47,421 nt of DNA from an uncultured Eubacteriales bacterium (lineage in GTDB: Bacteria; Bacillota; Clostridia; Christensenellales; CAG-138). Numbering within the stretch: position 1 is the stretch's first letter; the number at the start of each line of letters is the position of its first letter. Made by a program: the position numbers and the translations under genes. The notes under the pieces are model-generated. The model made no database searches. It was not told where the DNA came from and saw nothing but the letters and a program-made list of their open reading frames with translations. Of this stretch, positions 3,599-16,396 are shown in pieces. The DNA is taken from contig CADCMN010000005.1 of assembly GCA_902802575.1 (NCBI GenBank), forward strand, positions 1-47,421. Direction: 5' to 3'.

Positions 3599-6421
3599 AT
3601 GGTAAAAGAAGTGAACCCCCGCATCCATGTGAACGAGCGGGACTATCCCGTGGACGGCCACCATTGCAGCGACCCGGAGAAGGCCAAGCTGGTCAAAAAG
3701 CTGGCCCTTCTCATCACCGACAACATCCCCCGCAAGCTCCCCGGCGGCATGAAGGAAAACCACATGGATTTCTGGATTTTGGACCGGCTCCTCACCACGG
3801 AGGAGATCAGGTTCATGCTGAGCTTCGAGAAGCGCCGGGTGGGCCGGACCACCAAATGGCTGGCCGAAAAGAACGGCATCTCCGAAGAGGCCGCCCAGAA
3901 GGTCATCGACCATCTGGTCTGGATCGGCATCGTGGAGCAGAACCGGGACAATCCGGACCAGCACATCCAGTACTGCATCCCCAAGTGGGTGGTGGGCTCC
4001 GGCGAATACATGGTGGAGCATAAGACGTTGCCCGACGAGCATCCCGAGGTGGCCACCATGTTCAACCTGGCCCCCCAGGAGCCCCTCGAAATGGCGGCCA
4101 AGCTGGTGCCCCCCGGCGGGGCCGGCATCGGCATGCACGTGATCCCCGTGGAGAAGGCCATCGACGCTTCCAGCCAGAGCGTGTCCGTGGAGCACCTGTC
4201 CCACTGGCTCCAGAAGTACGACAAATTCTGCACCATGGTCTGCGCCTGCCGCAAGGCCCAGCGCATCCGGGGCGAGGGCGTGGGCGACATCGAGGGCTAC
4301 ATGTGCATCGGTGTGGGCGACATCGCGGAATTCTTGGTGGAATCCGGCAAGGACGCCCACTACATCACCCGGGAGGAGGCCATGGAGATCATCGAGCGGG
4401 CGGAGCGCAAGGGCTACGTCCACCAGATCACCAACCTGGACGGCCCCAACCGCATCGTGGGCATCTGCAACTGCTCCCCCGGCAGCTGCTACGGCCTTCG
4501 CACCAGCCAGCTCTTCAACACGCCCAACATGTCCCGGTCCGCCTATCGGGCCCACGTGGACAAGGAAAAGTGCGTGGCCTGCGGCAAGTGCGTGGAGGTC
4601 TGCCCCGCCGGCGCCGCCAAGCTGGGCCAGAAGCTCTGCAAGGCCGACGGCGCCCGGGTGAAATACCCGGTCCACGACCTGCCCGACGATCACGTCTGGG
4701 GCGAGGATCGCTGGGACAGAGACTACCGGGACCACAACAGGATCAACTGCTACGACACCGGCACCTCCCCCTGCAAGACCGCCTGCCCGGCCCATATCGC
4801 CGTCCAGGGCTATATCAAGATGGCCGCCGAGGGGCGCTACGCCGAAGCCGTGAAGCTGATCCGGCAGGACAACCCCTTCCCCGCCGTGTGCGGCGCGGTG
4901 TGCAACCGCCGCTGCGAGGACCGCTGCACCCGGGGGACCGTGGACAAGCCCGTGGCCATCGACGAGATCAAGAAGTTCCTGGCCCAGTGGGAGCTGGAGC
5001 ACCCGGAGACCTACGCCGAGATCTGCGAGAACATGGACGGTAAACAGTGGACCGAGTTCCCCATCGCCGTCGTGGGCGCGGGCCCGGCGGGCCTTTCCGC
5101 GGCTTACTATCTGAGGAAAGAGGGCTACCCCGTCACCGTCTTCGACAAGGCGAAGCGGCCCGGCGGCATGCTCCTCAACGGTATCCCCTCCTTCCGCCTG
5201 GAGAAGGACGTGCTGGAGAAGGAGATCGACATCCTCCGCGCCATGGGCGTCACCTTCCGCTGCGGCGTGGAGGTGGGTCGTGACGTGACCATCCAGCAGC
5301 TCAGGGATCAGGGCTTCAAGGCCTTCTTCCTGGCCATCGGCCTCCAGGGCGGCCGCAAGGCGGGCGTGCCCGGCGAGGAGGGCCCGGACGTGGAAAGCGG
5401 CGTGGACTTCCTCTATCGGGTCAACAACGATCCCACCCAAAAGCTTGTCGGCGACGTGGTGGTGGTGGGCGGCGGCAACGTGGCCGCCGACGTGGCCAGG
5501 ACGGCCCTTCGGGCCGCCGACGGCCGGGTCACCATGCTCTGTCTCGAGAGCCGGGAGGAGATGCCCGCGGCCAAGGACGAGGTGGCGGAGGTCCTGGAGG
5601 AGGGCATCGCCATCGAGAACGGCTGGGGCCCCAAGGAGGTCCTGCGGGACGCCGACGGGAAGGTCACGGCCGTGGTCTTCAAGCGCTGCACACGGGTCTT
5701 CGACGAGCAGCGCCGGTTCAGCCCCCTCTACGACGAGAACGACACCAAGACGATCCCCTGCGCCAACGTGCTCATGGCCATCGGCCAGAGCGCCCAGTGG
5801 GGCGACCTGTTGAAAGGCACCAAGGTGGCATTGCGGCCCAACGGCGGCGCCGTCGCCGACCCGGTGACGCTGCAGACCGCCGAGCCCGACATCTTCGTGG
5901 GCGGCGATATCTACCACGGCGCCAAGTTCGCCATCGACGCCATCGCCGACGGCCGGGAGGCCATGGTCTCCATCAACCGGTTCGTCCACCCCGGCCAGAG
6001 TCTGACCATCGGCCGGGATCGGCGGGAGTTCATCGAGTTCGACCGGGAGGACATCACCCGGCCCGACTCCTTCGACAACTCTCCCCGCCAGCGGCCCGGC
6101 ATGCAGCCCGGCGATGCCCGAGCCACCTTCCGCGACCTCAGATTGCCCCTCACCGAGGAGCAGGTGAAGATCGAGGCGAACCGGTGTCTTGGGTGCGGGG
6201 CCACCACGGTGGACTTCAACAAGTGCATCGGCTGCGGCCTGTGCACCACCCGGTGCGAGTTCGACGCCATCCACCTGACGCGGGACCTGCCCGCCTGCAG
6301 CGATATGCACACGGCGGAGGAGATGATGAGCCTGGTGGGTCCCTACGCCCTCAAGCGCATGGGCAAGATCATCAAGCGCAAGCTCACCGGCAAGGGCGAA
6401 TACCCGTCGGAGCAGGAATAA
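3599..6421 (+). CDS. Multi-cluster iron-sulfur flavoprotein (GltD-like NAD(P)/FAD oxidoreductase)
   Basis: 940 aa; SD AAGGAG 6 bases before ATG. Residues 1-310 are a winged-helix-like region ending in an unusual cysteine set (C211, C215, C217, C236, C290, C292, C297) likely to hold a cluster. Residues 325-347 carry a 4Fe-4S ferredoxin motif (CVACGKCVEVCP). Residues 392-460 match the GltD N-terminal double-cluster domain (CKTACP; CGAVCNRRCEDRC). FAD motif VVGAGPAGLS is at 491-500, NAD(P) motif VVVGGGNVAAD at 621-631, and a second FAD strand FVGGDIYHGAKFAIDAI at 766-782. Residues 863-887 carry a final cluster (CLGCG; CIGCGLCTTRCEFDAI). The family couples NAD(P)H and ferredoxin-like carriers to a partner enzyme. 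Together with the preceding reductase it could feed the upstream FAD enzymes; that is inference. Confidence 0.8.
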   Translation: MVKEVNPRIHVNERDYPVDGHHCSDPEKAKLVKKLALLITDNIPRKLPGGMKENHMDFWILDRLLTTEEIRFMLSFEKRRVGRTTKWLAEKNGISEEAAQKVIDHLVWIGIVEQNRDNPDQHIQYCIPKWVVGSGEYMVEHKTLPDEHPEVATMFNLAPQEPLEMAAKLVPPGGAGIGMHVIPVEKAIDASSQSVSVEHLSHWLQKYDKFCTMVCACRKAQRIRGEGVGDIEGYMCIGVGDIAEFLVESGKDAHYITREEAMEIIERAERKGYVHQITNLDGPNRIVGICNCSPGSCYGLRTSQLFNTPNMSRSAYRAHVDKEKCVACGKCVEVCPAGAAKLGQKLCKADGARVKYPVHDLPDDHVWGEDRWDRDYRDHNRINCYDTGTSPCKTACPAHIAVQGYIKMAAEGRYAEAVKLIRQDNPFPAVCGAVCNRRCEDRCTRGTVDKPVAIDEIKKFLAQWELEHPETYAEICENMDGKQWTEFPIAVVGAGPAGLSAAYYLRKEGYPVTVFDKAKRPGGMLLNGIPSFRLEKDVLEKEIDILRAMGVTFRCGVEVGRDVTIQQLRDQGFKAFFLAIGLQGGRKAGVPGEEGPDVESGVDFLYRVNNDPTQKLVGDVVVVGGGNVAADVARTALRAADGRVTMLCLESREEMPAAKDEVAEVLEEGIAIENGWGPKEVLRDADGKVTAVVFKRCTRVFDEQRRFSPLYDENDTKTIPCANVLMAIGQSAQWGDLLKGTKVALRPNGGAVADPVTLQTAEPDIFVGGDIYHGAKFAIDAIADGREAMVSINRFVHPGQSLTIGRDRREFIEFDREDITRPDSFDNSPRQRPGMQPGDARATFRDLRLPLTEEQVKIEANRCLGCGATTVDFNKCIGCGLCTTRCEFDAIHLTRDLPACSDMHTAEEMMSLVGPYALKRMGKIIKRKLTGKGEYPSEQE

Positions 6422-7732: not shown

Positions 7733-9091
7733 GTGAGGGACACGTTTCGCGGCGGTGTGCATCCCAGGGGACACAAGGAACTGAGCAAGGAAGCATCGCT
7801 GCGCGTATTCGACGCCAAGGGAGAGATGGTCTTCCCTCTGGCCCAGCACATCGGCAAACCGGCTAAGGCCATCGTCAAGAAGGGCGACCCTGTGCTGGTG
7901 GGCCAGTGCATCGCGGCGGCGGACGGCTTCGTCTCCGCCAACGTCATCTCGTCCTGCTCGGGCACGGTGAAAGCGGTGGAGAAGCGCCGCACCATCGCCG
8001 GCGTTCTGCAGGAATGCGTGGTGATCGACAACGACGGCCAGTACACCGAGACCGGTGCCTTCGGCACGCGGCAGGACATCACCGACATCACCAATGAGGA
8101 GATCCTGCGTCGGGTGGCGGCGGCCGGCATCACGGGCCTGGGCGGCGCGGGCTTCCCCACCCATGTGAAGCTGGCACCCAAGGAACCCTTGAAGATCAGG
8201 TACCTCATCGCCAACGGGGCCGAGTGCGAGCCCTACATCACCTGCAACGACCAGCTCATGCGGGGCTACGGAAAGGAGATCGTGGAGGGCATGGAGATCA
8301 TGCTCCGGCTCTTCCCCAACGCCGAGGGCGTCATCGCCATCGAAGGAAACAAGCCCGAGGCCATCGCCGCCATGGAGATGGCCGTGAAGGGCCATCCGAA
8401 GCTCCGGGTCCAGAAGCTCCGCACCAAGTACCCCCAGGGCGGCGAGCGCAGCCTCATCAGCGTCATCGCCGGGGTGGACTATCCCACCTCCAAGCTCCCG
8501 GCGGACGTGGGCTGCATCGTGGACAACGTGGGCACCATCTACGCCGTGGGCCGGGCGGTCCTCTATAACGAGCCCCTGTTCCGGCATGTGATCACCGTCA
8601 CCGGCGAGGGCGTCCGGACCCCCTCCAACTTTATCGCCCGGGACGGCACCAGCTTCTGCGAGATGATCGAGGCGGCCGGCGGTCTCAGGGAAGGGGCGGA
8701 CCCCAAGAAGGTCATCTCCGGCGGTCCCATGATGGGCTTGGCCGTCAGCACCCTGGACGTGCCCATCACCAAGACCACCAACGCCGTCACCGTGCTCCTT
8801 TCCGACGAGGTGGAGAAAGCGGAGCTGCAGATGACCGCCTGCCTCCATTGCGGCCGCTGCACCACCGTGTGCCCCAACGGCCTCATGCCTCAGATGATGG
8901 CCGACGCCATCGTCGCCGGGGACATGGAGCGGTATGAAAAGAAACTCTACGGCCTGGACTGCATCTTCTGCGGCTCCTGCACCTACATCTGCCCGGCCAA
9001 GCGGCCGCTCACGCAGAACTTCAAGCAGACCAAGGCGGAGATCCTGGCCAAAAAGAGGGCGGCCCAGGCTGCCCAGGGGGGAGGGAAATAA
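7733..9091 (+). CDS. rnfC: Rnf electron transport complex subunit C
   Basis: 452 aa, GTG start chosen because AGGAGGG lies about seven bases upstream and the only ATG nearby (7731) meets a stop at once. RnfC is the peripheral cytoplasmic subunit that exchanges electrons with NADH. Residues ~1-100 are the biotinyl/SLBB-like N-terminal domain. The NADH/FMN-binding region has GLGGAGFPTHVK at 135-146 and NGAECEPYITCN at 161-172. Two 4Fe-4S clusters are given by C370/C373/C376/C380 and C410/C413/C416/C420. Length is normal. It is the first gene of rnfC-DG-E-A-B, three bases before the next start. Confidence 0.95.
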   Translation: MRDTFRGGVHPRGHKELSKEASLRVFDAKGEMVFPLAQHIGKPAKAIVKKGDPVLVGQCIAAADGFVSANVISSCSGTVKAVEKRRTIAGVLQECVVIDNDGQYTETGAFGTRQDITDITNEEILRRVAAAGITGLGGAGFPTHVKLAPKEPLKIRYLIANGAECEPYITCNDQLMRGYGKEIVEGMEIMLRLFPNAEGVIAIEGNKPEAIAAMEMAVKGHPKLRVQKLRTKYPQGGERSLISVIAGVDYPTSKLPADVGCIVDNVGTIYAVGRAVLYNEPLFRHVITVTGEGVRTPSNFIARDGTSFCEMIEAAGGLREGADPKKVISGGPMMGLAVSTLDVPITKTTNAVTVLLSDEVEKAELQMTACLHCGRCTTVCPNGLMPQMMADAIVAGDMERYEKKLYGLDCIFCGSCTYICPAKRPLTQNFKQTKAEILAKKRAAQAAQGGGK

Positions 9092-10682: not shown

Positions 10683-11366
10683 ATGAACAAATACGTGGAA
10701 CGGCTGTACAACGGCCTCATCAAGGAGAATCCCACCCTGGTGCTCATGCTGGGCATGTGCCCCACGCTGGCGGTGTCCAAGTTCGCCATGAACGGCATCT
10801 ACATGGGCCTGTCCACCACGGCGGTGCTGGTGTTCTCCAACCTCATCATCTCCATCCTTCGGCGGGTGATCCCCAATGAGGTCCGGCTCCCGGCCTACAT
10901 CGTGATCGTGGCCTCCCTGGTGACGGTGACGGAGCTGCTCATCAAGGCCTATCTGCCGGCGGCGGACGAAGCCCTGGGCCTGTACATCCCCCTGATCGTG
11001 GTGAACTGCATCATCCTGGGCCGGGCGGAAGCCTACGCCAACAAGAACGAACCGGGCCTGGCCATCATGGACGGCATCGGCATGGGCCTGGGGTTCACCG
11101 TGGCGTTGACGCTGGCGGGCGTCGTTCGTGAGCTGCTGGGGCAGGGCACCATCTTTGCGGTGCGGGTGCTGCCCGAAAGCGTCTCCCCCATCGCCATCTT
11201 CGGCCAGGCCCCCGGCGCGTTCCTGGTCATCGCCCTGTTCATCGCCATCATGAACGCCATCGGCATCAAGACCCGTCAGAAACAGCTGGTGGAGAACGAC
11301 GGCTGCAGCGGCAACTGCGCCGCCTGCGCCATGAGCTGTGACGAGAGGAAGGAGGAAGCCAAATGA
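10683..11366 (+). CDS. rnfE: Rnf electron transport complex subunit E
   Basis: 227 aa integral membrane protein with six predicted helices. RnfE pairs with RnfA and each half supplies two cysteines to an intramembrane [2Fe-2S] cluster; the candidates here are C26 (GMCPTLA) and C109 (VVNCIILG). The last 20 residues add a hydrophilic tail with C208, C212, C215 and C219 (CX3CX2CX3C), which could hold another cluster or a metal. The start follows the rnfDG stop by one base, with the SD inside the end of rnfDG. Its own stop overlaps the rnfA start by four bases. Confidence 0.95.
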   Translation: MNKYVERLYNGLIKENPTLVLMLGMCPTLAVSKFAMNGIYMGLSTTAVLVFSNLIISILRRVIPNEVRLPAYIVIVASLVTVTELLIKAYLPAADEALGLYIPLIVVNCIILGRAEAYANKNEPGLAIMDGIGMGLGFTVALTLAGVVRELLGQGTIFAVRVLPESVSPIAIFGQAPGAFLVIALFIAIMNAIGIKTRQKQLVENDGCSGNCAACAMSCDERKEEAK

Positions 11367-11941
11367 AATCCCTGCTGCTCATCCTCATCAGCGGCGCGCT
11401 GATCAACAACGTGGTGCTGAACCAGTTTTTGGGCATCTGCTCCTTCCTGGGCGTGTCCAAGCAGATGAAGGCCTCGGCCAGCCTGGGCGTGGCGGTCATC
11501 TTCGTCATCACCATCGCCTCAGCGGTGGCGAGCCTCCTGTATACCTACGTGCTCAAGCCCTTCGGCCTGGAGTTCATGAAGACCATCGTCTTCATCCTGG
11601 TCATCGCGGCCCTGGTGCAGATCGTGGAGATGTTCCTCAAGAAATCCTCCCCGGGCGTCTATAAGTCCCTGGGCATCTTCCTGCCCCTCATCACCACCAA
11701 CTGCGCGGTGCTGGGCGTGGCCATCGACAACGTGAAGGCGGAGTACACCTTCGTGGAGAGCGTGGTCTCCGGCTTCGGTGTGGCGGTGGGCTTCACCGTC
11801 GCCATCGTGCTCCTGGCGGGCATCCGGTCCCGGATCCGGGAGGAGGATCTGCCGGCGCCGCTTCGGGGCGCGCCCATCGTGCTCATCTCGGCGGCGCTCA
11901 TGTCCATTGCATTCATGGGCTTCTCCAAGCTGTCGTTCTGA
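11363..11941 (+). CDS. rnfA: Rnf electron transport complex subunit A
   Basis: 192 aa, six membrane helices, homologous in plan to RnfE but inserted in the opposite orientation. C26 (GICSFLG) and C114 (TTNCAVLG) are the expected ligands of the shared intramembrane [2Fe-2S] cluster. The ATGA overlap with rnfE implies translational coupling. Length and motifs are normal for the family. Confidence 0.95.
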   Translation: MKSLLLILISGALINNVVLNQFLGICSFLGVSKQMKASASLGVAVIFVITIASAVASLLYTYVLKPFGLEFMKTIVFILVIAALVQIVEMFLKKSSPGVYKSLGIFLPLITTNCAVLGVAIDNVKAEYTFVESVVSGFGVAVGFTVAIVLLAGIRSRIREEDLPAPLRGAPIVLISAALMSIAFMGFSKLSF

Positions 11942-11956: not shown

Positions 11957-14074
11957 ATGGTCATTCTCATAACGACGATCATGATCGTGGTCATCGGCAT
12001 TGCGGTCGCCGCAGGCCTGGTCTTTGCGGGCAAGAAGTTCTATGTGCCCGTGGACGAGCGGGAGGCGGCGGTCCGTGAGTGCCTGCCCGGCAACAACTGC
12101 GGCGCCTGCGGCTATGCGGGCTGCGACGCCATGGCGGCGGCCATCGTGGCCGGGGACGCGCCGGTGAACGGCTGCCCCGTGGGCGGCGCCCCGGTGGCGG
12201 AGAAGATCGGCGGCATCATGGGCAAGGAAGCCCAGGCCCTGGAGCGTCAAGTGGCCTTCGTCCGCTGCAAGGGCACCTGCGAGAACACGAAGAAGCAGGG
12301 CACCTACGTGGGCGTCACCGACTGCCGGGCGGCAGCGCTGGGCGGCATCAACGTGGGCGAATGCGACTACGGCTGCATGGGCCTCGGCTCCTGCGTGAAC
12401 GTGTGCCCCCAGGGCGCCATCACGCTGGTGGACGGCGTGGCCCAGGTGGACCCCCGTAAGTGCGTGGCCTGCGGGCTCTGCGTGAAGGCCTGCCCCAAGG
12501 GGCTCATCGAGCTCATCCCCGAATCGAAGCACGTGGTGGTCCAGTGCCGGAACAAGGACAAGGGCCCCCTGGTCAAGAAGGTCTGCTCCGCCGGCTGCAT
12601 CGGCTGCACCCTGTGCGTGAAGCAATGCGAATACGACGCCATCCACATGGAAGGGAACGTCGCCAAGATCAATTACGAGAACTGTACCCAGTGCGGCAAG
12701 TGCGCCGAGAAATGCCCCAGCAAGGTCATCACCCGGACCACCGCACCCGCCCCGGCGAAGAAAGGAGAGGAAAAGATGGAAAAGAGAAATCAGGCGGCCA
12801 AGCTGCTCGTCGGCCTGGTCATCGTGGTGTTGGCGGTGCTGCTGTTGGGCGGCATCGTGGGCGGCGAAAAGCTGCTGTTCCGGGTGGAACGGACCACGCC
12901 CCTGACCCATGACGATATCACCTACAAGACCGTGGATGCGCCGGCCGCCACCAGCAAGGACGGCACCATCAGCGCTGCCGACTGGGCGGCCGCCTATCCC
13001 GAGATCGCGGCCAGCATGTGGGACAACAAGAAGAACGAGTATATCGTGGACTACCTCGCTCAGGATCCGTACCTGAAGAACATCTACGAGGGCTTCGGCT
13101 TCGCCACGGAGTACGGCTCCGCCCGCGGTCATGAGTACACCCTGGCCGATGTGGAGCACACGCAGCGCCCCCACGGCAAGGCCAACTGCCTCACCTGCAA
13201 GACCCCCAACTTCGCCAAACTGGTGAACGACCAGGGCGTGGGCGTCTACAAGATGACCTTTAGCGAGGCCTATGCGCTCATGGAGGAGAACGTGAGCTGC
13301 TACACCTGCCACGGCAACGAGGCGGGCGAAAAGGGCAAGCTGGTGGTGACCCACAGCTATGTGACCAAGGCTCTGGGCGCCAATGCGGAGAAGATCGATC
13401 CGGCCACCCTGTCCTGCGGCCAGTGCCACATCGAGTACTACTTCACGCCCGAGGATGCGGAGACCATGATGCCCTACGGCAGCGTGGAGGAGATGACGCC
13501 GGAAAAGATCCTGGAATACTATGACAACTTGGTCCTGCCCGACGGCACCGTGGGCTTCTCCGACTGGACCCAGAAGAGCACCGGCACCAAGATGCTCAAA
13601 GCCCAGCACCCCGAGATGGAGACGTACCTCACCGGCAAGCACGCCAAGCTGCTGAATTGCGCCGATTGCCATATGCCCCTGGTGGAGGCTGAGGACGGCA
13701 CCGTCTACCACAGCCACCTGCTGATGAGCCCCCTGGAGAACGACACTCTGCTGCAAAGCTGCGCCACCTGCCACAAGGATGCGGACATGGTGAAGGCGGT
13801 CCGCAAGATCCAGGAGCAGATCACCGCCCGGGAGACCGAGGTGGGCAACAAGCTCTCCAACTTCAAGGACGCCCTGGCTGAGGCCGTGGCCGCCGGGACC
13901 ATGAGCGAGCCTGAGCTGGACGCTGTGCGCAAGCTCTATCGGGAGGCCCAGTGGTTCTTCGACTTCTGCTACGTGGAGAACGCCGAAGGCGCCCACAACT
14001 CCGCCCTGGCGAACCGCTGTCTGGACACTGCCGAGCAGAAGATCAGCGAGGGCATGGCGCTCCTTGGGAAATAA
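11957..14074 (+). CDS. rnfB: RnfB fused in frame to pentaheme nitrite reductase NrfA
   Basis: One open frame of 705 codons with no stop. Residues 1-273 are RnfB: a membrane helix (3-24), the Fe-S domain cysteines C42, C48, C51, C56 and C73, then ferredoxin-type motifs at 169-179, 214-224 and 243-253. RnfB takes electrons from reduced ferredoxin in the cytoplasm. An Ala/Pro/Lys linker (262-273) leads to Met274, a second membrane helix (~283-303) and an NrfA-type cytochrome c. Topology is consistent: helix 1 with N-out leaves the ferredoxin domains inside, and helix 2 puts the haem domain outside. However AGGAGAGG lies just before ATG 12776, so NrfA may also, or mainly, be made as a separate protein. 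Loss of the RnfB stop by mutation or assembly error is the alternative. SD GGGAGGT precedes ATG 11957. Confidence 0.88.
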   Translation: MVILITTIMIVVIGIAVAAGLVFAGKKFYVPVDEREAAVRECLPGNNCGACGYAGCDAMAAAIVAGDAPVNGCPVGGAPVAEKIGGIMGKEAQALERQVAFVRCKGTCENTKKQGTYVGVTDCRAAALGGINVGECDYGCMGLGSCVNVCPQGAITLVDGVAQVDPRKCVACGLCVKACPKGLIELIPESKHVVVQCRNKDKGPLVKKVCSAGCIGCTLCVKQCEYDAIHMEGNVAKINYENCTQCGKCAEKCPSKVITRTTAPAPAKKGEEKMEKRNQAAKLLVGLVIVVLAVLLLGGIVGGEKLLFRVERTTPLTHDDITYKTVDAPAATSKDGTISAADWAAAYPEIAASMWDNKKNEYIVDYLAQDPYLKNIYEGFGFATEYGSARGHEYTLADVEHTQRPHGKANCLTCKTPNFAKLVNDQGVGVYKMTFSEAYALMEENVSCYTCHGNEAGEKGKLVVTHSYVTKALGANAEKIDPATLSCGQCHIEYYFTPEDAETMMPYGSVEEMTPEKILEYYDNLVLPDGTVGFSDWTQKSTGTKMLKAQHPEMETYLTGKHAKLLNCADCHMPLVEAEDGTVYHSHLLMSPLENDTLLQSCATCHKDADMVKAVRKIQEQITARETEVGNKLSNFKDALAEAVAAGTMSEPELDAVRKLYREAQWFFDFCYVENAEGAHNSALANRCLDTAEQKISEGMALLGK
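12776..14074 (+). CDS. nrfA: Ammonia-forming cytochrome c nitrite reductase (internal start)
   Basis: 432 aa if started at ATG 12776, which has SD AGGAGAGG five bases upstream. An uncleaved N-terminal helix (10-30) would anchor it outside the membrane. Five haem sites are visible: CLTCK (138-142), the lysine-ligated catalytic haem typical of NrfA, then CYTCH (175-179), CGQCH (214-218), CADCH (295-299) and CATCH (329-333). Candidate active-site residues are R131, Y221 (in HIEYYF) and H278 (in QHPE). NrfA reduces nitrite to ammonium with six electrons. The usual NrfH partner is absent and rnfB lies directly upstream in the same frame. Haem maturation genes follow. Other substrates such as hydroxylamine are possible. 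Confidence 0.9.
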   Translation: MEKRNQAAKLLVGLVIVVLAVLLLGGIVGGEKLLFRVERTTPLTHDDITYKTVDAPAATSKDGTISAADWAAAYPEIAASMWDNKKNEYIVDYLAQDPYLKNIYEGFGFATEYGSARGHEYTLADVEHTQRPHGKANCLTCKTPNFAKLVNDQGVGVYKMTFSEAYALMEENVSCYTCHGNEAGEKGKLVVTHSYVTKALGANAEKIDPATLSCGQCHIEYYFTPEDAETMMPYGSVEEMTPEKILEYYDNLVLPDGTVGFSDWTQKSTGTKMLKAQHPEMETYLTGKHAKLLNCADCHMPLVEAEDGTVYHSHLLMSPLENDTLLQSCATCHKDADMVKAVRKIQEQITARETEVGNKLSNFKDALAEAVAAGTMSEPELDAVRKLYREAQWFFDFCYVENAEGAHNSALANRCLDTAEQKISEGMALLGK

Positions 14075-14264: not shown

Positions 14265-15581
14265 ATGATGAAAAAACTCCTGAAATTCCTTTCGTCCATG
14301 GGCTTCGCCATCACACTGCTGGTGGTGCTGGCCGCCGCCTGCGTCGCGGCCAGCTTCGTGACCCAGGGCCAAAGCTACGAATGGTACGCGCAGGCGTATT
14401 CCGATGGCGCGGCCCGGCTGATCGTGGGCCTGGGCCTGGACGACGCCTTCCACAGCTGGTGGTTCCTGACGGTGACCGTCTTCCTCTGTGGGAATCTGCT
14501 CCTATGTAATTTGATCCGATTGCGGCCCCTGATCGCCCGTTACCGCCGGGAAGCCGATCCCGCCGCCGCTCTTTCGGGCCCGGCGGACGTCTGCTGCGAA
14601 GGCGTGGCGGACCCCTTGCCCCTGTTCGAAAAGCTCCGGCTGTCCCAGCCCAAAGCCCATGAGATCGAGGGCCGGAAGGTCCTGTTCGTCGGCAAAAACC
14701 GGCTGGGCCTCTGGGGTCCCTGGGTGTGTCATCTGGGCATCCTGCTGCTGATCGCGGGGTTCACCCTGGGCCAGCTCACCCATCGGGAGTATACGGTCTA
14801 CGGCGTCCCCGGCGACACCAAGCCCATCGGCGATACGGGCTACTTCCTGACCATCGACGACTTTGAAGTGAAGCTCCGGGAGGACGACACGGTGGAACAG
14901 TACGTGGCGGCCATCACCGTCTTCCGCGCCCCCCAGGGCTCCACCGCCGTTCCCGACAGCATGAGCGCCGCCGTGTCCGTGAACCACCCGGCCCGGCTCT
15001 ATGGCTTCAAGATCTACCAGAATTCCACGGGCTTCGCCGCCCGGATCCGCGTGGACGAGGCGGGGACGCCGCTGCAGACAACGGTGGTCTGCGCCGGAGA
15101 GGGCATCGAGATCGCCGATGCCCCGGGGTTGCGGGTGTACCTGAACGCCTTCTATCCCGATTTCTATCTGCAGCCCGGCGTGAGGCCTATGACCCGGTCC
15201 GGCCGGATGAACAACCCGGCATACCTCTATTCCATCACCTATGAGAACAGCATGGTGGGCATGAACTACTGGCAGGGATCGGACGGCCCCATCAAGGTCA
15301 ACGACTATACCATCACCTTCTCGGAACCCCAAAGCTATACGCTCCTGCAGGTCAAGACGGACCATTTCCAGGAGCTGGCGCTGTTGGGCGGTCTCATCAC
15401 CCTGCTGGGCCTGATCCTGGCTTTCTATGTGCTGCCCGTCAAAGTCTGGGCCACCGAAAATACGGACGGGACCTGGACGGTATACGGACAGAGCCGCAAG
15501 GGCGGCGCCCTGTTCCGGGAGGCATTTGACCGGGCCGCAGGCCGCGACGCAGTCCTGACAGAGAAAGGAGCTCAGACATGA
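14265..15581 (+). CDS. resB: Cytochrome c biogenesis protein ResB
   Basis: 438 aa. ResB and CcsA together form the System II haem lyase, which exports haem and joins it to CXXCH motifs outside the membrane. Four membrane helices are seen (about residues 11-31, 65-85, 145-170, 370-395), with a large extracytoplasmic domain between the third and fourth, as in the family. A histidine (WVCHLG) in helix 3 is a likely haem ligand. There are two adjacent ATG codons (14265, 14268) and no strong SD, so the start is uncertain. The stop overlaps ccsA by four bases. The neighbouring pentaheme NrfA is the obvious client. Confidence 0.9.
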   Translation: MMKKLLKFLSSMGFAITLLVVLAAACVAASFVTQGQSYEWYAQAYSDGAARLIVGLGLDDAFHSWWFLTVTVFLCGNLLLCNLIRLRPLIARYRREADPAAALSGPADVCCEGVADPLPLFEKLRLSQPKAHEIEGRKVLFVGKNRLGLWGPWVCHLGILLLIAGFTLGQLTHREYTVYGVPGDTKPIGDTGYFLTIDDFEVKLREDDTVEQYVAAITVFRAPQGSTAVPDSMSAAVSVNHPARLYGFKIYQNSTGFAARIRVDEAGTPLQTTVVCAGEGIEIADAPGLRVYLNAFYPDFYLQPGVRPMTRSGRMNNPAYLYSITYENSMVGMNYWQGSDGPIKVNDYTITFSEPQSYTLLQVKTDHFQELALLGGLITLLGLILAFYVLPVKVWATENTDGTWTVYGQSRKGGALFREAFDRAAGRDAVLTEKGAQT

Positions 15582-16396
15582 CGCTTTCCTTGGAAATCAT
15601 CCTCTTCTATGGGGTCCTGGGCCTGTATTTTGGGGCCATGGTCCTCTACTTTCTCTTCGTGGCCGCCAAACGGGAGCGGCTCGGAAAGGCGGCTGTGAAC
15701 GTCCAGACGGTGGGCTTGCTGCTGCACACGGCGGCCATCGTCCTTCGAGGCATCGTGGCCGGACGGCTGCCGCTGACCAACCAGTATGAATTTGCCTCCG
15801 CCTTCAGCTGGGGCCTGTGTCTGGTGAGCCTGCTGTTCATCCTGAAGTTCAGGTTCACCCTGCTGGGCGCCTTCTCCGCGCCGATCACCTTTATCATCAT
15901 CGGCTATGCGGCCCTGCAGTCCAAGGAGATCCGGTCCCTGATGCCGGCGCTGCAATCCAACTGGCTGGGGTTCCACGTGTCCACGGCCATCATCGCCTAC
16001 GGCGCCTTCGGCGTCTCCTGCGTGCTGGGGATCATCTTCCTGCTGCGGGATAAAATGAAGGAAAGCGGCTTCCTGGATCAGCATATCCCCAGTCGTGAAA
16101 AGCTGGACATGCTGAGCTATCGGAGCGTCAGCCTGGGCCTCCTGTTCCTCACCTTCACCATCGTCACCGGCGCCATCTGGGCCGAGCGAGCCTGGGGCAG
16201 CTACTGGTCCTGGGACCCCAAGGAGACCTGGTCCTTGGTGACCTGGCTGGTCTACGCCACGTACCTTCATCTGCGCATCCGCCGGGGCTGGCAGGGCAAA
16301 TCCGCCGCCATCTTCGCCGTGGCGGGCTTCGCGTGCGTGATCTTCACCTACATCGGCGTGAACACCCTCCTGCCCGGGGTGCACAGCTATAAATAA
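15578..16396 (+). CDS. ccsA: Cytochrome c biogenesis protein CcsA/ResC
   Basis: 272 aa polytopic membrane protein with about eight helices. The Trp-rich haem-handling motif WGSYWSWDPKETW lies in the last third, flanked by conserved histidines. It completes the System II haem lyase with ResB and is translationally coupled to it (ATGA, SD AAAGGAG). It ends the rnf-nrfA-res block. Confidence 0.93.
   Translation: MTLSLEIILFYGVLGLYFGAMVLYFLFVAAKRERLGKAAVNVQTVGLLLHTAAIVLRGIVAGRLPLTNQYEFASAFSWGLCLVSLLFILKFRFTLLGAFSAPITFIIIGYAALQSKEIRSLMPALQSNWLGFHVSTAIIAYGAFGVSCVLGIIFLLRDKMKESGFLDQHIPSREKLDMLSYRSVSLGLLFLTFTIVTGAIWAERAWGSYWSWDPKETWSLVTWLVYATYLHLRIRRGWQGKSAAIFAVAGFACVIFTYIGVNTLLPGVHSYK

Follow-up and report, generated by a model that had tools for sequence, protein, structure and literature searches.

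In Christensenellales, a multi-flavinylated RnfG carries a multi-haem cytochrome domain, as set out in the passages on multi-haem RnfG of Meheust et al. (2021, PMC8238504), in which the name NrfA is absent. In Methanosarcina acetivorans, the multi-haem cytochrome c MmcA is encoded with rnf and ferredoxin electrons travel via Rnf; the sections of PMC11024163 on this system describe MmcA as a heptahaem methanophenazine reductase and a separate protein. In NrfHA, for example that of Sporomusa ovata, a pentahaem-type NrfA converts nitrite to ammonium outside the membrane and, in the account of the complex in PMC12780646, takes its electrons from the tetrahaem NrfH encoded beside nrfA.

Here, we describe an operon from an uncultured Eubacteriales bacterium, lying on a stretch of 47,421 nucleotides that was analysed as a whole (the window), which is predicted to encode an Rnf complex together with the nitrite reductase NrfA and proteins for haem attachment, and in which rnfB and nrfA lie in a single open frame. 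Like the RnfG proteins of those passages by Meheust et al., which come from related bacteria, it pairs an Rnf cluster with a multi-haem protein on the outer side, but its NrfA has no FMN_bind domain (Pfam scan of the merged frame) and is joined to the cytoplasmic-side RnfB, through loss of a stop codon. As in the Rnf-MmcA system, rnf is accompanied by a gene for a multi-haem cytochrome c, in this case NrfA, and as in NrfHA the reductase is of the pentahaem type. A search for NrfH (PF03264, the Cytochrom_NNT/NrfH family) gave no match in the genome of the window, so that the partner characteristic of the NrfHA complex was not found there; this genome is 77% complete, and NrfH could therefore have been missed.

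The earlier note knew of no described RnfB-NrfA fusion, which stands in so far as a full-text literature search for RnfB with NrfA returned no title on one, and the words 'nitrite', 'fused' and 'fusion' are absent from the main text of a review of RNF and NQR (PMC12174285). The corresponding search on RnfD-RnfG fusion in the RNF complex found no paper titled on that subject either.

The operon and its merged frame

Of 90 loci, not deduplicated, 66 have the whole gene order rnfC-rnfDG-rnfE-rnfA-rnfB-nrfA-resB-ccsB (Table 1) and 24 have part of it. In four of the partial loci an 'rnfG' match adjoins nrfA; it probably reflects an FMN_bind domain that forms part of the NrfA protein. Wherever rnfD and rnfG are both present among the 90 loci they share one open reading frame (74 of 74). 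This rnf-nrfA-resB-ccsB operon is a more durable and more solid finding than the fusion within it, which taken alone is probably a minor, one-base event. Upstream of the operon, positions 3599-6421 of the window encode a 940-residue protein with Fe-S and NAD(P)-binding glutamate-synthase-like parts.

Table 1. Positions of the operon genes and of features in the merged frame (window numbering)
Feature	Coordinates	Strand	Evidence
rnfC	7733..9091	+	TIGR01945 491.8 bits, cut-off 245.95
rnfD + rnfG, one frame, 528 aa	9095..10681	+	TIGR01946 230.2 bits over 8-306; TIGR01947 103.4 bits over 333-521; both above cut-off
rnfE	10683..11366	+	TIGR01948 231.9 bits, cut-off 213.4
rnfA	11363..11941	+	TIGR01943 254 bits, cut-off 229.3
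Merged rnfB-nrfA frame	11957..14074	+	705 codons; ORF reading and Pfam
RnfB part, residues 1-258	11957..12730	+	N-terminal hydrophobic stretch, FeS domain, Fer4 motifs
AAA (Lys269), TAA in same-frame congeners; T-to-A stop loss	12761..12763	+	Junction alignment
nrfA Shine-Dalgarno AAGGAG, kept	12762..12767	+	8 nt before ATG 12776
nrfA from ancestral ATG: anchor helix and pentaheme nitrite reductase	12776..14074	+	MEKRNQ start aligned in congeners; PF02335; 1gu6_A
Second hydrophobic stretch, residues 277-310	12785..12886	+	Kyte-Doolittle, 19-residue windows above 1.6
Catalytic haem motif CLTCK	13187..13201	+	Aligned with CWSCK of 1gu6_A
resB, System II cytochrome c maturation	14265..15581	+	PF05140 155.8 bits, cut-off 24.6
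ccsB, System II cytochrome c maturation	15578..16396	+	TIGR03144 270.5 bits, cut-off 187.6

The merged frame opens with ATG and runs through its 705 codons with no internal stop, which confirms what had been claimed for it, namely that RnfB and NrfA share one uninterrupted reading frame. Its first part belongs to the RnfB family (TIGR01944, 90.6 bits against a cut-off of 68.7), while several models of longer RnfB equivalogs match below their own cut-offs (for example NF005503, 229 against 252). Immediately downstream of the other rnf genes, it has the N-terminal hydrophobic stretch of an ordinary bacterial RnfB, an FeS domain at residues 43-75 and matches to several Fer4 models up to about residue 258, but unlike an ordinary RnfB it then continues, through the stop loss, into a C-terminal extension of 447 residues that includes NrfA.

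This second part matches Cytochrom_C552 (PF02335) over residues 356-701 with 256.5 bits (cut-off 24.1), and all five haem motifs are intact, with one CXXCK (CLTCK at residue 411) and four CXXCH (CYTCH at 448, CGQCH at 487, CADCH at 568 and CATCH at 602). Its best solved relatives are cytochrome c nitrite reductases of the E. coli type (1gu6_A, E = 1.7e-46), and RGH, CGQCHIEYYF and KAQHP of the window align to RGH, CGQCHVEYYF and KAQHP of 1gu6_A, which we take to hold the catalytic Arg, Tyr and His of the NrfA active site. It scores well below the cut-offs for the E. coli subgroup of NrfA (TIGR03152, 171.2 against 692.5; NF008339, 205.8 against 595). Because both halves are full-length members of their families within one operon, their joining is not a chance run of open codons.

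The joint and its counterparts in relatives

At the joint, the same-frame congeners end rnfB with a TAA that overlaps the Shine-Dalgarno sequence of nrfA, the heptamer TAAGGAG being aligned there in G040, G042, G044, G045, G046, G048 and G039. The best-matching junction, that of congener G042, reads gagTAAggagagcaaaagATG, and the window reads aagAAAggagaggaaaagATG. Across the joint itself (gcggagTAAggagagcaaaagATG in G042 against gcgaagAAAggagaggaaaagATG in the window), the alignment is ungapped with substitutions only, and TAA differs from AAA by a single T-to-A substitution at 12761. The lost stop is separated from the ATG at 12776 by four codons, none of them a stop, so that one substitution suffices to merge the genes.

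This ATG, with the residues MEKRNQ, is the aligned nrfA start in all ten readable congeners, which makes plausible the suggestion of the earlier note that a separate NrfA could also be made from it. Since both the Shine-Dalgarno sequence and the ATG are kept, a separate NrfA is likely, and from the sequence we judge it most likely that two products, the fused protein and the separate NrfA, are both made. Ribosomes that formerly ended at rnfB would continue via the four former spacer codons to yield a 76-kDa RnfB-NrfA (75.8 kDa predicted without haem), and initiation at the ATG would yield a 48-kDa NrfA (47.7 kDa, likewise without haem).

The search of the family matched all 103 of its genomes somewhere, with both genes readable in 35 relatives. 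Read as DNA at the junction, all 35 have a stop that ends rnfB ahead of nrfA. For the relatives, this is the outcome that the earlier note had named as refuting (a stop between 12740 and 12776), though it decides nothing final about the genome of the window itself. These include the 10 readable genomes among the 11 others of the window's genus, all with the stop; the eleventh, G043, was left out of the junction count, its contig beginning inside nrfA. Within the family the stop loss is thus confined to the window genome, and a fusion as an established gene arrangement is not supported. An open joint does not belong to the rnfB/nrfA gene pair as such; in the window it either arose recently by the change of one base or is an error. 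Protein matches spanning residues 1-705 with long open frames were considered as conserved fusions and rejected, since in every family case the DNA proved to have a stop at the joint, and long RnfB frames flagged in five further genomes all proved to be ordinary frames of 270-294 residues.

A wider scan used the best 80 of 276 relatives, a choice that favours same-frame pairs. These are metagenome-assembled Clostridia with a few labelled Lachnospiraceae, Oscillospiraceae or Spirochaetes, and many of the assemblies belong to the RUG and RGIG series from ruminants, the RUG names presumably denoting the rumen. Across 128 loci both genes lie in one frame in three (two of them the window itself) and apart in 117, with one gene absent in eight. 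After deduplication, 87 distinct pairs remain, of which two are merged, 84 adjacent but separate and one not adjacent. The second merged pair, in a distant MAG (L067, RUG11259, frame L067:6103-8259), has the joint CAAAAAGGAGACAAGATGG, with AAAGGAG again preceding the nrfA start, and is 72% identical to the window in RnfB and 68% in NrfA. Its nearest relative among the loci compared, L106, has a TAG stop and a longer spacer at the joint, and on a quick tree the two merges are separate changes. Among the matches listed from 396 genomes of the order and 391 of the class, both sampled, no further full-length stop-free frame was found; judging from the same matches, the L067 genome apparently lies outside this sample.

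These surveys bear on the notion of an old, conserved RnfB-NrfA fusion family whose single polypeptide would itself carry electrons all the way from ferredoxin to nitrite. The open frame itself speaks for it, but with 85 of the 87 distinct pairs unmerged, no additional stop-free match in the order and class samples and presumably no cofactor across the membrane part of the tether, it is extremely improbable, and as a family it is refuted in the genomes examined by the stop in 35 of 35 family relatives and the merging of only 2 of 87 pairs.

The A at 12761 rests on the consensus of one metagenome-assembled genome, and may stem from a mistake in the consensus or the assembly, or from a variant carried by a minority of strains, in an organism with the usual two genes. 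The whole matter hangs on one base of a fragmented draft of 140 contigs, at a stop that every readable family relative possesses, yet we regard this explanation as rather unlikely. In comparisons with six congeners (7-14 orthologous genes each), rnfB-nrfA was the sole merged pair in the window and no gene was split, while 36 reciprocal and between-relative comparisons gave no merges; a codon-position filter was used throughout the window, conserved antisense frames having produced many false merges when unfiltered. The bases neighbouring 12761 differ from G042 as ordinary divergence predicts, and L067, from a second metagenome-assembled genome, has the same kind of merge.

Flavins and the proposed route to nitrite

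The two membrane helices put forward in the earlier note, with the RnfB clusters inside and the haems outside, are supported at the level of hydropathy: the merged protein has two hydrophobic stretches (about residues 1-30 and 277-310, Kyte-Doolittle) that would allow the topology, the second helix of the fused protein then carrying the haem domain outward. That a single polypeptide could bridge ferredoxin and nitrite is physically doubtful. In the Rnf architecture, electrons pass via other Rnf subunits and outer flavins. Because the clusters and haems would sit on opposite sides of the membrane with no cofactor in the tether, the tether is unlikely to be the electron path, and electrons would still have to go by way of those subunits and flavins; the fusion would add a tether but no new path.

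A different arrangement is found in six relatives (one other family), where the NrfA in the slot between rnfB and resB carries long extensions (L200-L205, from G195, G453, G366, G271, G339 and G430, examined in operon context; G348, seen as a cut-off frame only, is outside the count). FMN_bind is present in five of the six, which thus combine FMN_bind domains and a haem domain in one protein as multi-flavinylated multi-haem RnfG does and as the window protein does not. One of the five also has FAD_binding_2, in a part resembling fumarate reductase, and the sixth, in G430, has a long extension with no FMN_bind match. By pattern, the extended proteins have up to six flavin-type motifs. The FMN_bind-NrfA proteins are probably the multi-haem RnfG proteins of Meheust et al., and FMN_bind on an NrfA in this slot suggests, at the level of sequence, a flow from ferredoxin through Rnf and outer flavins to NrfA and ammonium.

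For the window, we favour a route in which ferredoxin passes its electrons to the RnfB clusters, the membrane subunits of Rnf carry them on to the flavin bound covalently to RnfG (in this operon one protein with RnfD), and NrfA receives them from there, because the operon is conserved, NrfH was not detected and relatives have FMN_bind on NrfA. The genome has one ApbE flavin transferase. NrfA would then be a terminal reductase of Rnf, acting without NrfH. RnfC is an ordinary member of its family that scores over the cut-off. The complex may therefore also work with NAD, and it may have partners besides NrfA. The explanation as a whole, in which a T-to-A stop loss yields both a fused and a separate NrfA and NrfA serves as terminal reductase of Rnf, seems to us reasonably probable. 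A bolder version, which we hold to be improbable, is that a natural, working RnfB-NrfA fusion beside free NrfA links the terminal nitrite reductase to an ion pump powered by ferredoxin. The window would then show a new respiratory supercomplex in the course of stepwise gene fusion (rnfD-rnfG fixed, rnfB-nrfA arising twice), with Rnf as a ferredoxin:nitrite oxidoreductase that needs neither quinone nor NrfH.

An Rnf operon with its own nitrite reductase and haem-attachment genes and no detectable quinol-to-NrfA link matters more than the fusion, and the relatives with separate but adjacent genes hint at a pump that passes electrons to nitrite. If so, ferredoxin oxidation would be coupled to ammonium formation in fermenting gut bacteria, providing an electron sink that competes with the production of hydrogen and methane. 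Should the merged frame be real, it would allow a direct test of whether Rnf and NrfA are in physical contact.

Rates of change in nrfA

The fusion might instead be a selected, species-specific trait, keeping the reductase next to the pump and the two in constant proportion. Consistent with this, the pair has merged twice separately: 2 of the 61 rnfB-nrfA pairs that share a frame are merged, and none of the 91 same-frame pairs from six other neighbour pairs of the operon. The excess is not significant (probability about 0.16, by hand) and so indicates no special merging tendency of rnfB-nrfA. The NrfA of the window also has 16 singleton residues, G82W in NrfA numbering among them, which is more than in any of nine congeners of its genus (1-11), and its terminal branch is 0.174 in nrfA against 0.026-0.134, a difference not seen in rnfB or rnfC. 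Relaxed constraint would explain the faster change equally well, the relative-rate chi-square for nrfA exceeds 3.84 in only three of nine comparisons, uncorrected, and the separate nrfA start is kept. Selection for the fusion is, on this balance, very doubtful.

Over synonymous distances of about 0.27-0.76 between window and congeners, dN/dS for nrfA is 0.25-0.32 in the seven congener comparisons that involve the window and 0.16-0.25 in five pairs without it, and rnfB has no comparable shift. By these values, purifying selection continues to act on the NrfA of the window, if perhaps in a slightly weaker or changed form. The nrfA of congener G044 (L007) lacks six residues in frame relative to the other congeners, among them the first Cys of CGQCH.
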